Below the pieces are notes generated by a model. It was given only the letters and a program-made list of their open reading frames with translations, did not search any database and had not been told where the DNA came from. Below are positions 41,173-44,952 of a stretch of DNA of 45,487 nucleotides, one piece after another. Source of the DNA: Candidatus Kapaibacterium sp. (lineage in GTDB: Bacteria; Bacteroidota; Ignavibacteria; Kapaibacteriales; JAEUSM01); assembly GCA_016788785.1 (NCBI GenBank), contig JAEUSM010000010.1, positions 1 to 45,487 of the forward strand. Reading direction: 5' to 3'. How positions within the stretch are numbered: the stretch's first letter is position 1; each line of letters starts with the position of its first letter. The translations under genes were made by a program, and so were the position numbers.

Positions 41173-41565
41173 TTATTCATTTGTAACTGATTCTTCTGAT
41201 GTAGTCTCTGGTGTTTCGTCGGTTTCTTCGGAACTATTCTCAGTTATTTCTTCATATAAAAATTTGATAACATGCTTTTTACTACAACTACATACCAATT
41301 CAATTCTTACAATATCATCATTGTCATTTCGGTGAATCATCAAGGTAGTATTTTGGTGTTCTTGTTCCTCAGGTGGAATCTCTATAATAACCGTTTCCCC
41401 ACTTTCTTGAACGATGTCTCTGGGAATCAAGTCGGTTTTATGTTTCCGTTGTAATTCTCCTGAAATTCGTTTAAGTACGAGAAAATCTTTAAAGGCAGCT
41501 TCCTTGCGTTCAACTTCTTTATCAGGGGTAAAGTCTTCCGGTACAAATTCTTTGATAGTATTCAT
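41173..41565 (-). CDS. Unknown acidic protein with a CxC motif, third gene after cheR
   Basis: From the ATG at 41565 the protein has 130 residues; a TTG six bases upstream is also possible. I do not recognise it. The first ~60 residues are helical and charged (EFVPEDFTPDKEVERKEAAF, then VLKRISGELQRK). A beta-like region follows (ETVIIEIPPEE, TTLMIHRNDND, IVRIELVCSCSKKHVIKFLYEE) that holds the only two Cys as C-S-C, near residue 95. The end is a Glu/Thr/Ser tail. No signal peptide or membrane segment. The CSC pair could bind a metal or be redox-active (inference). It lies 19 bases after the CheY-like gene and appears to share its transcript with cheR, so a role in that pathway is plausible. 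Confidence 0.8.
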   Translation of the reverse strand: MNTIKEFVPEDFTPDKEVERKEAAFKDFLVLKRISGELQRKHKTDLIPRDIVQESGETVIIEIPPEEQEHQNTTLMIHRNDNDDIVRIELVCSCSKKHVIKFLYEEITENSSEETDETPETTSEESVTNE

Positions 41566-41584
41566 ATGCAAATTGTTCTAATTG

Positions 41585-41953
41585 TTACAACATAAAAAGA
41601 ATTGTGTCGATTTTTTCTTTTAATGTTTGTGGAGTGAATGGACGAACCAAGTAATTACTTACTTTTGCTGCCATCGCTTCTAAGATATTTTCTTTTAATG
41701 TCCTTGAAGAAACTAATAATACAGGTAAACTTTGCAAGCTTACATCGTTTCGTATATATTTAGTAAGTTCTAAACCATCAAAACCAGGCATATTCCATTC
41801 AGTGATAACAAACTCTATTTTTTCTGTATTGAGTTTTACGATAGCATCTTGACCGTCAATTGCTTCTATAATGTTTTTATGTCCTAATGATTTCAGAGAA
41901 TTTATTATTATTCTTCGCATTGTAGCAGAAGAATCCACGATTAGAAAAACCAT
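41585..41953 (-). CDS. CheY-like receiver with altered phosphorylation site
   Basis: 122 residues, a single receiver domain clearly related to CheY (VDSSATMRRIIINSLKSLG, WNMPGFDGLELTKYIR, LPVLLVSS, YLVRPFTPQTLKEKI). The catalytic set is changed. The acidic pair is Asp7-Ser8 instead of Asp-Asp; the phospho-acceptor Asp is Glu52 (ITEWNMPG, codon GAA); the conserved Lys is Arg104 (codon CGT); the switch Thr is Ser82. A Glu at the acceptor position often mimics the phosphorylated state, so the protein may be locked on and not phosphorylated. No output domain. It starts 16 bases after cheR ends, which ties it to that gene. No CheA or receptors are in the window. Confidence 0.92.
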   Translation of the reverse strand: MVFLIVDSSATMRRIIINSLKSLGHKNIIEAIDGQDAIVKLNTEKIEFVITEWNMPGFDGLELTKYIRNDVSLQSLPVLLVSSRTLKENILEAMAAKVSNYLVRPFTPQTLKEKIDTILFML

Positions 41954-41969
41954 CTTTAACCCCTTTTTT

Positions 41970-42956
41970 TCAAGAACGTGCAGTACTATTTACTTCATAC
42001 AAATTACGAATGTTAGTAGAACTTTTGAATTGAGTTAATTCATTCTTTTTGTACGCCAATGAATTTAGTTCATAATTTCGTGCAAAAAGATGTTCAATTC
42101 CATACAAAGATTCGGAATATCCAACAAAAAGATATCCGAGCATATTTATTTGTTTGTAAAATGAATGGATGACATTCTTTTTTGACTGCTCATCAAAGTA
42201 AATAAGAACATTACAACAAAAGATACAATCTAAAAGTGGTAATTGTCTCCAATCATCTTGATTATATAAATTCAAGGTTGTAAATCGAACCATTGATCGT
42301 ACATCTTCTGACAGTTGAAACGAAGAACCCTCTTTATGAAAGTATTTTGAGAAATAAATAGCTGGTACATGCCTAACAGAATATTCTGAAAATAGTCCAT
42401 TTCTTGCTACATTTAAAACCTTTTCATCAATATCTGTGGCAATTATTTCAAATTCAATATGAGGATATAAATGCTGGATTTCTTCTTTAATTATTATTGC
42501 CAACGTATATGCTTCTTCACCACTTGAACATCCTGCACTCCAAATTGTAATCTTTTGCTCTAACGCACTTTTTTGTTTGTGAAATATTAAATCAGGAATA
42601 ACTATTTCACGAAAGGTATCTATATGTTCTGGACAACGGAAAAAATACGTCTCATTTATTGTGATTGCTGTATAAAGTTTTGGCAACTCAATATGCAAAA
42701 ATTCTTCATTATTTAATTGTGTTATATACGACTCAAAGCTGATGTTTCCTAATTCAATCAATCGTTTGGTAATTCTTGCTTCCAGAAGATATTTTTTCTC
42801 ATTGATAAAGTATATTCCAGTCCAATTGTAGATTTTACTACGCAGAATTTCAAAAGCACTATACGTCATTTCACCAATTTCTTGATGAATCATAGAGCGT
42901 TCTTTGAATATATTCATTACCTCTTGCAGCAAATGATTTGACGTCTTTATGGTCAT
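41970..42956 (-). CDS. cheR: CheR-type chemotaxis protein methyltransferase
   Basis: CheR methylates glutamates of chemoreceptors with S-adenosylmethionine. The 328 residues start with a short helical stretch, then the CheR N-terminal domain (~30-90) and the methyltransferase domain with NETYFFR (101-107), IWSAGCSSGEEAYTLA (138-152), ATDID (173-177) and CNVLIYFD (~264-271). A ~45-residue C-terminal tail follows. The start at 42956 has no clear ribosome site; ATGs at codons 14 and 22 are alternatives. It leads the cheR / CheY-like / unknown gene cluster and is divergent from the DUF4153 gene. No receptors, CheB or flagellar genes are nearby, so its target is unknown. Confidence 0.93.
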   Translation of the reverse strand: MTIKTSNHLLQEVMNIFKERSMIHQEIGEMTYSAFEILRSKIYNWTGIYFINEKKYLLEARITKRLIELGNISFESYITQLNNEEFLHIELPKLYTAITINETYFFRCPEHIDTFREIVIPDLIFHKQKSALEQKITIWSAGCSSGEEAYTLAIIIKEEIQHLYPHIEFEIIATDIDEKVLNVARNGLFSEYSVRHVPAIYFSKYFHKEGSSFQLSEDVRSMVRFTTLNLYNQDDWRQLPLLDCIFCCNVLIYFDEQSKKNVIHSFYKQINMLGYLFVGYSESLYGIEHLFARNYELNSLAYKKNELTQFKSSTNIRNLYEVNSTARS

Positions 42957-43044
42957 TTATGAAGTATTTTCTCTGAAACTACTTCTAATTTACAAAAAAC
43001 TTCTTATTTTAGCCATTATAAAAACAAAATTTATTGGAAATATC

Positions 43045-44952
43045 ATGAATCTTCCTTCAATTACAAATATGTTTTCCTCTGTAAAAGAAATCTTGCAACG
43101 GTTTCCTTTTGCTGTTTTGAATGCCTTTGTTCTTTTAGTTATTTCTGTCATGTTTGTTCATCAAACTGACTTAGACCTTTCTGAAAATGTTCGAGAAATC
43201 CTTTTAAAATCTTCATTTATTTTATCACTGGGAATTGCATTTCATTTTGCCATTCATACTTTCAGAGAAAGAAAGAATCTTTCAAGTATGTTTGGACTTT
43301 TGCTTCATGGTTTTGGCATTGTTGGATCTGTAACTTTGTACTTCCTCTACCCAAAACCAAACACAGAATTTGCCATTCTGTTAGCTTGTTATGGGCTATT
43401 TTCTCATCTCATTGTCGCTTTTTTGGCGTTTTGGGATGATAATGACTCGATGGCTTTTTGGAAATTCAACAAAGATCTTTTCCTTCGATTTCTGCTTGCA
43501 GCATTATTTTCTAGTGTTTTATTCGGAGGGATTGCAGGTGCAATAGGCTCATTCGATTTGCTTTTTTCTATAAATGTCAAATCTGAAATTTATGGAGATT
43601 TGTTTTTATGTATTTCATTGATATTTAATACGCTCTTTTTTCTCAGTGGTGTACCAAAGCTCAACGAAGAAACCAACGAAGTAGAACCCAACTACCCAAA
43701 AAGTCTCAAAATTTTCACACAATTTGTACTATTACCTTTGGTGGTTATCTACCTTTTGATTATGTATGCATATACTATCAAAATTATCTTTTTATGGGAT
43801 TGGCCTCGAGGAATACTCACCTATATGATTTTAGGCTATTCCATTGCAGGAATGTTGGCGTTGTTGCTTCTCTATCCAATACAAAATTTGGCGGAAAACA
43901 AATGGATTAAAATATTCAGTACATGGTTCTATCGTGCGTTATTGCCATTAGTGGGGGTTTTGGGAATTGCCATCTTTAAGCGTGTAAGTGATTACGGTAT
44001 TACAGAAGAACGCTACTTCGTTATTATACTCTCGGTTTGGTTGCTTGGTATTTCTTTGTACTATTCGTTTTCTAAAGCAAAAAACATCAAATACATTCCC
44101 ATTACTTTAGCAGTTTTGGCATTTATCACTACTTTTGGACCATGGGGAGCATTTTCCGTGTCCAAAAATTCTCAATGGAATCGCTTGGAACATACGCTTG
44201 TTAGTAACAAACTTCTCATAGACGGAATGCTCAAAAAAGGTGAATATAAAATTCCTCAAAAAGAATATGACAATCTTGTTTCTATTTTGAGCTATTTCAA
44301 CCGTGATTATGATACTGTCAGCAGTGGTTACCAGCAGTTTTTGTGGTCAAAAGTATCCTTACCTGATAGCATCAAAAACATTTGCAAAACTAGTCCATAT
44401 AATCTTGTTGATGAACTTGGTATCAAGCCAATACCAGATAGTACCTCTGCAAATTACAAAAATGGAAATTATTCTTACTTAGGATTAAACAATGCATCCT
44501 TATTGCGAACCGATAGTATTCCATTTGTATTATCAACTAAAGAATTTAATAATGTAGTAAAAACGAATTTTTATGTGTCATATATTGATACTTTTGCAGT
44601 TATTACTAAACGAATTCAAACAGAAAACGATGTCATTTTTGCAACCTACGTTGCAAATACAGGAATAATGACATTTATGCGACAGTCTGACTCAGCAACA
44701 TGCACATTTGATGTCAAAACCTACTACAAAGAAACATCAACAATAGTAGAAAACAACAAATTACATGACAGAATTGGAGCAGATAAAACATACGAATCTC
44801 AACGATTGATGCTCCAACAGCTGTACACCGTTGAAAAAGCAAACGCAGAAAAAACCTTTACCGTCAAAATGTACATCAATACCATCAACGGAAGGCAGAT
44901 AGGCAAAACCATTGAAATATACGACATCGATCTCACCATCCTTCTCAAATAA
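43045..44952 (+). CDS. DUF4153-family membrane protein
   Basis: From the ATG at 43045 the protein has 635 residues; GGAAA eight bases before it supports this, and a longer in-frame start at 42949 would overlap cheR. About 11 or 12 membrane segments fill ~20-395, with FLLAALFSSVLFGGIAGAIG and the family-typical YPKSLKIFTQFVLLPLVVIYLLIMYAYTIKII ... DWPRGILTYMI region. This matches DUF4153, a multi-pass family of unknown function common in Bacteroidota. The last ~240 residues are soluble and hold a Tyr/Asn/Ser-rich beta domain (NGNYSYLGLNN). A strong terminator follows. Quoted motif is split here by position: residues ~245-285 carry it. Confidence 0.88.
   Translation: MNLPSITNMFSSVKEILQRFPFAVLNAFVLLVISVMFVHQTDLDLSENVREILLKSSFILSLGIAFHFAIHTFRERKNLSSMFGLLLHGFGIVGSVTLYFLYPKPNTEFAILLACYGLFSHLIVAFLAFWDDNDSMAFWKFNKDLFLRFLLAALFSSVLFGGIAGAIGSFDLLFSINVKSEIYGDLFLCISLIFNTLFFLSGVPKLNEETNEVEPNYPKSLKIFTQFVLLPLVVIYLLIMYAYTIKIIFLWDWPRGILTYMILGYSIAGMLALLLLYPIQNLAENKWIKIFSTWFYRALLPLVGVLGIAIFKRVSDYGITEERYFVIILSVWLLGISLYYSFSKAKNIKYIPITLAVLAFITTFGPWGAFSVSKNSQWNRLEHTLVSNKLLIDGMLKKGEYKIPQKEYDNLVSILSYFNRDYDTVSSGYQQFLWSKVSLPDSIKNICKTSPYNLVDELGIKPIPDSTSANYKNGNYSYLGLNNASLLRTDSIPFVLSTKEFNNVVKTNFYVSYIDTFAVITKRIQTENDVIFATYVANTGIMTFMRQSDSATCTFDVKTYYKETSTIVENNKLHDRIGADKTYESQRLMLQQLYTVEKANAEKTFTVKMYINTINGRQIGKTIEIYDIDLTILLK

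Follow-up and report, generated by a model that had tools for sequence, protein, structure and literature searches.

Three adjoining genes in the 45,487-nucleotide stretch of Candidatus Kapaibacterium DNA analyzed here (the window), encoding CheR, a CheY-like protein and an undescribed CxC protein, are, as judged from gene order in related genomes, survivors of a once complete chemotaxis operon. The predicted active site of the CheY-like protein indicates that it is no longer a substrate for ordinary phosphorylation. On the reading that we prefer, this former chemotaxis output persists independently of phosphorylation and probably still acts on the motor; slow decay is a serious rival.

A three-gene cluster with an altered CheY

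The initial annotation placed cheR first, the CheY-like gene second and the CxC gene third in one cluster, and we confirmed this order in three intact, tightly packed minus-strand ORFs.

41970..42956, minus strand: cheR, 328 aa; PF01739 at 183.6 bits (E 4e-54) and PF03705 at 39.4 bits
41585..41953, minus strand: CheY-like gene (cheY1 remnant) for a pseudo-receiver of 122 aa; PF00072 at 72.9 bits (E 3e-20)
41173..41571, minus strand: CxC gene, with a CSC motif and an acidic tail; no match in Pfam or NCBIfam
41798..41800, minus strand: Glu52 codon GAA, aligned with the phospho-acceptor (E. coli Asp57) and read directly
41642..41644, minus strand: Arg104 codon CGT, aligned with the conserved lysine (E. 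coli Lys109) and read directly

Only 16 bases separate cheR from the CheY-like gene and 13 bases the CheY-like gene from the CxC gene, and given these gaps, the three are probably co-transcribed. A sigma-70 promoter scan gave fewer matches than in shuffled sequences. The CxC ORF is listed with a TTG start at 41571, but the ATG at 41565 is the likelier one. The cluster is contiguous in its contig, with an S1-like gene on one flank and a DUF4153 gene on the other. The latter (window positions 42949-44952) is divergent and encodes a membrane protein; taken from its first ATG, it shares eight bases with the start of cheR, and its true start likely lies later.

Against the receiver profile PF00072, the CheY-like protein scored well above the cut-off of 30.2 bits, and NCBIfam CheY was its best model, yet below cut-off (130.9 vs. 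189). The changes that alignment revealed, D13S, D57E, T87S, and K109R in E. coli numbering, replace four of the five phosphorylation-site positions, while D12 and the switch residue Y106 are retained. The Ser8, Glu52, Ser82, and Arg104 initially reported are thus correct, the Glu (GAA) and Arg (CGT) codons having been read on the reverse strand. T87S is a common and permissible receiver variant, but by what is established for receivers, D13S, D57E, and K109R abolish the ordinary phosphorylation chemistry. The protein therefore has Glu, Ser, and Arg where the active site of a phosphorylated CheY would have other residues (Ser for Thr being acceptable) and fits the description of a pseudo-receiver: it matches the receiver profile without the acceptor Asp and without further catalytic residues.

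All 19 CheY1 orthologues of relatives have Asp, Asp, Thr, and Lys at these sites. The Glu/Arg substitutions, whose conservation across related genomes the initial annotation had asked about, are thus not shared by these orthologues. Asp at position 52 in close relatives had been expected to mark a sequencing error or a one-off change. Every orthologue of the taxonomic order does carry it, but all 19 are from other families, the window's own family having no other genome among the relatives, and Glu52 is no one-off error, since CheA is lost from the whole genome, which accounts for the replacement. We rejected sequencing error, a poor explanation because Lys (AAA/AAG) to CGT and Asp (GAT/GAC) to TCT need two base changes each, and four sites are altered. 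A paralogue in place of the CheY1 orthologue was rejected as well, with identity at 55-59% to CheY1 and at most ∼37% to CheY2-type proteins. Relatives' CheY sequences have 62 columns that are at least 95% conserved; the window's protein keeps 46 and differs in 16, and these 16 contain four of the five catalytic positions (hypergeometric p ∼0.014). A CheY1 profile search of genome contigs matched named Kapabacteria/Ignavibacteria loci; its pattern VVDDSPTM would miss a degenerate CheY, so further Glu variants may exist unseen. Searching genome contigs with CheR patterns returned no close relatives of the window's genome, and the CxC profile is too variable for a scan of this kind.

It had also been suggested that the Glu imitates phosphorylation. 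Glu is indeed the commonest substitute for the acceptor Asp in aspartate-less receivers, but CheY is cited as a case where Asp-to-Glu alone is insufficient (PMC4395418). The proposed mechanism of a phosphomimetic Glu runs through the Thr and the Lys (PMC12632262). Given that both of these are altered here, a phosphomimic effect of Glu52 is doubtful.

The operon of origin and the CxC family

Many genomes of the same order carry a full chemotaxis operon, and in related Kapabacteria/Ignavibacteria the complete operon runs cheR-cheY2-cheY1-cheZ-cheA-cheB-CxC. One genome (G017) has the order cheR, cheY1, CheZ (PF04344), cheA, cheB, CxC, and in most other full operons of the order, cheR and cheY1 are separated by a second CheY gene. 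The window's cluster has no cheY2, cheZ, cheA, or cheB between its three survivors, and none of the receivers examined in its genome (G000) was a CheY2 orthologue. In relatives, CxC is the last che gene, after cheB; in the window, where the operon has lost cheB, it follows cheY. With a full che operon in relatives and CxC as its regular member, the initial proposal of a free-standing methyltransferase module was not supported. In Ignavibacteriales and Melioribacter, the operon runs on past CxC into flgB-flgC-fliE-fliF-fliG (flagellar genes named by eye), and CxC homologues of 81-90 aa sit between cheB and these flagellar genes.

L143:14081-14326: CxC homologue
L141:4632-4877: CxC homologue
L146:14049-14321: CxC homologue

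Homologues of CxC are thus found in Ignavibacteria as well as in 26 of the 61 genomes of the order, G000 included. The gene is present in 25 of 38 FliM-positive genomes vs. 1 of 23 FliM-negative genomes (Fisher p 2e-6, a value that overstates the case since the genomes are related). The exception, G013, has CxC without FliM, and its genus-mates have FliM. Within family f7, the FliM-negative genomes carry cheA, cheY1, and cheR and lack CxC, and the single FliM-positive genome, G060, has CxC. The presence of CxC tracks flagella rather than CheA. The core of the protein is F..D(F/Y) ... I.G ... C.CG, with both cysteines invariant in 28 aligned sequences; the window's CxC has this core and the CSC, and Ser replaces the nearly invariant Gly after the CxC. 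No Pfam model covers the homologue at L143, the one tested, and the two CxC models obtained with AlphaFold2 were of low confidence (pTM 0.28 and 0.31). The family is a conserved member of che/flagellar operons that has no Pfam or NCBIfam model.

Flagellar and chemotaxis genes across the genome

G000 comprises 2.97 Mb in 18 contigs and is 99.45% complete. Neither the CheW domain (PF01584) nor the MCP signaling domain (PF00015) had a match in it, and control genomes and many relatives matched both. The CheW domain is common to CheA, at its C terminus, and CheW, so G000 has no recognizable CheA or CheW. Its CheY-like protein thus has no CheA kinase and its CheR no MCP substrates in the genome, in agreement with the earlier view that this is not classical chemotaxis. 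The flagellar genes found encode FliM, FliL, FliN, and FliO, along with two flagellins above cut-off, a third, weaker flagellin match, and FlgK-, FlgL-, FliD-, and FliS-like ORFs (named by eye). The remark that no CheB or flagellar gene is visible holds near the cluster but not genome-wide, where a CheB methylesterase and flagellar genes lie elsewhere. The genome-wide look for cheA, mcp, and flagellar genes that had been recommended accordingly had a divided outcome: no CheW domain or MCP, but flagellar genes present.

The genome encodes a predicted target for CheY, a FliM with a docking motif.

C15:448605-449177: FliM, match over the whole profile

The FliM N terminus MADVLSQHEIDSLL (LSQHEIDSLL) fits LSQxEIDxLL, a widely conserved CheY-binding motif of FliM (PMC5677366). 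On its FliM-binding side, the CheY-like protein retains Y106, K92, V108, F111, T112, L116, and K119; on or near this face, it differs from relatives by G90T, V/I107L, and M85L.

The window's CheR matched both the CheR_N and the CheR domain, contains the stretches WSAGCSSGEEAYT, TDID, and CCNVLIYFD, and shares 38-45% identity, across the alignment, with its counterparts in relatives. The textbook role of CheR and CheB is in the adaptation of chemoreceptors. The CheB of G000 lies far from cheR.

L082:9152-9757 (contig C6): lone CheB methylesterase, 201 aa, no receiver

It keeps the ASSTGG, QHG, and GYDG motifs (Ser, His, Asp) and is nearest to the second CheB type of the order, which carries a receiver in other genomes. 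Its neighbors are a proline dehydrogenase-like gene on one side and an endonuclease/exonuclease-like gene on the other. That CheR and CheB are kept with intact active-site motifs and without recognizable receptors or CheA suggests either another substrate or a decay of chemotaxis in a set order. A literature search that covered few subscription journals found no published case of CheR/CheB kept without CheA.

Comparable states occur elsewhere in the order. FliM without a CheW domain was found in 13 of the 61 genomes, nine of which have a CheR match. Two genomes with flagellins, G025 and G057, have no CheW domain and no MCP, and in each, a CheB with a phosphorylation-dead receiver adjoins the CxC gene.

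L085:8357-9496: CheB of G025, acceptor Asp replaced by Gly
L131:995-2140: CheB of G057, acceptor Asp replaced by Asn

The Thr/Ser and the Lys of these receivers are also lost, and the methylesterase motifs are intact. By these residues, the two CheB proteins show, apart from the window's CheY, that a Che receiver has turned phosphorylation-dead where CheA is gone. The CheA-less flagellated genomes G002, G025, and G057 have no CheY1 orthologue, so there is no general need for a fixed CheY. In the CheA-less family f6, genes for CheR, a FapA-like protein, and a sigma-54 response regulator adjoin (L125:9552-12891, L126:9542-12833, L239:9205-11591); in G000, the orthologous sigma-54 regulator is likewise paired with a FapA-like gene, but no CheR gene adjoins them.

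Evolutionary rates, explanations, and known systems

Only the che genes are fast in G000. Identity of the window's protein to relatives was 0.57 vs. 0.73 among relatives for CheY and 0.42 vs. 0.53 for CheR; the corresponding values were 0.67 vs. 0.69 for the FliM control (only five relatives) and 0.64 vs. 0.62 for the sigma-54 response regulator control. In maximum-likelihood trees, the terminal branch was 1.45 for CheY (median 0.093) and 2.9 for CheR (median 0.27), and CheR branches were also long in G002, G033, G059, and G025, which are without CheA or without the full operon beside cheR. The branch lengths and identities together indicate that the constraint on the window's CheY and CheR has changed. 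When we simulated the extra divergence as neutral, in a rough model of point mutations without indels, CheR stayed stop-free in 0.7% of runs and CheY in 27%. On the CheR figure, constraint on this gene did not vanish.

The explanation that we favor, tentatively and at slightly under an even chance, is an operon remnant in which CheY docks on the flagellar switch independently of phosphorylation. The operon of this flagellated lineage has lost cheY2, cheZ, cheA, and cheB, and the genome is left with no CheW-domain or MCP gene. Four catalytic replacements have deprived CheY1 of its phosphorylation chemistry, but its switch tyrosine is retained, as is most of the surface that docks on FliM, and FliM retains the motif that binds CheY. 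The protein may still dock on the switch, with motor bias either fixed or set by the amount of the protein (that is, by its expression) and not by a relayed, sensed signal. CheR, the detached CheB, and CxC would have been retained for a flagella-tied role that needs no chemoreceptor. Against this explanation weigh the changed residues on or near the FliM face and the absence of CheY1 from G002, G025, and G057. A bolder and distinctly unlikely extension is that, in several flagellated Kapabacteria, CheR (with or without CheB) and CxC form a receptor-free, kinase-free unit for control of the motor or its assembly, with the dead CheY as the fixed output here.

The cluster could instead be a decaying relic, in which che genes drift under weak selection after the loss of kinase and receptors and the active-site changes are signs of decay. 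Branches of ∼10 times the median or more in both CheY and CheR, the long CheR branches of the other genomes without a full operon, and the loss of the nearly invariant Gly in CxC fit such a history, as does the survival of a stop-free CheY in over a quarter of the neutral simulations; Glu for Asp and Arg for Lys are, moreover, common replacements in pseudo-receivers (PMC12632262). We regard decay as a serious rival, though less likely than docking on the switch. The three ORFs are intact and tightly packed, an intact CheR would rarely survive neutral change, the motifs of CheR are preserved, as are those for Ser, His, and Asp in the lone CheB, and about three-quarters of the conserved CheY columns remain. 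CheR also persists in several CheA-less flagellated lineages.

A self-contained methyltransferase module, with the fixed CheY acting on CheR or CxC and not on the motor, would account for the adjacency and probable co-transcription of the genes and for G059, where CheR and CxC adjoin without CheY. In its extreme form, Glu52 itself would be methylated, as has been proposed generally for a Glu at the acceptor site of aspartate-less receivers (PMC4395418). However, the genes stand in an order passed down from a normal che operon, so adjacency is no new evidence for interaction, and CheR and CxC persist in other CheA-less relatives that have no CheY1; this module is improbable. Lower still is the probability that cheA, cheW, and mcp are present in the organism and missing from the assembly. 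The assembly is split into contigs, and the cluster is near the end of one of 45 kb, but completeness is high, and the cluster itself is contiguous between its S1-like and DUF4153 neighbors. Many relatives have several CheW-domain genes and MCPs, scattered, yet G000 has none, and a phosphorylation-dead CheY and a lone CheB without a receiver also speak against a gap of this kind.

The window's CheY is a natural example of phosphorylation being lost from a CheY whose motor and docking motif persist, and one can use it to ask how a CheY functions when it cannot be phosphorylated. The cluster is of interest mainly because CheR and CheB have outlasted the receptors and because the flagellum-linked CxC family is undescribed.

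Compared with known systems, the CheR and CheB of G000 resemble the usual methylation pair, as each retains the domains of its family and its active-site motifs, but differ in that there is no MCP gene for them to act on and in that CheB stands alone, far from cheR. The Cle proteins of Caulobacter are, like the window's CheY, CheY-like single receivers; they reach the flagellar motor without needing a phospho-acceptor and bind c-di-GMP via a C-terminal arginine-rich extension with the motif [YF]xGP[DE][RK]R (PMC5677366). We rejected a c-di-GMP-binding CheY of the Cle type, as the 122-aa protein ends in ...EKIDTILFML, with no C-terminal extension. With CheY of the E. coli type and CheY1 of the Kapabacteria/Ignavibacteria che operon, the protein shares the single receiver domain, the identity to orthologues of the order, the switch tyrosine, the WNMPGFDGLEL signature, most of the FliM-binding face, and the inherited place in the che operon; it departs from them in its replaced phosphorylation residues and in having no CheA partner found in the genome. 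The Glu for Asp and Arg for Lys are shared with pseudo-receivers and aspartate-less receivers, and as in these, the output must be independent of phosphorylation (PMC12632262, PMC4395418). Unlike the pseudo-receivers described there, the window's protein is a stand-alone CheY from an operon whose kinase gene is gone.
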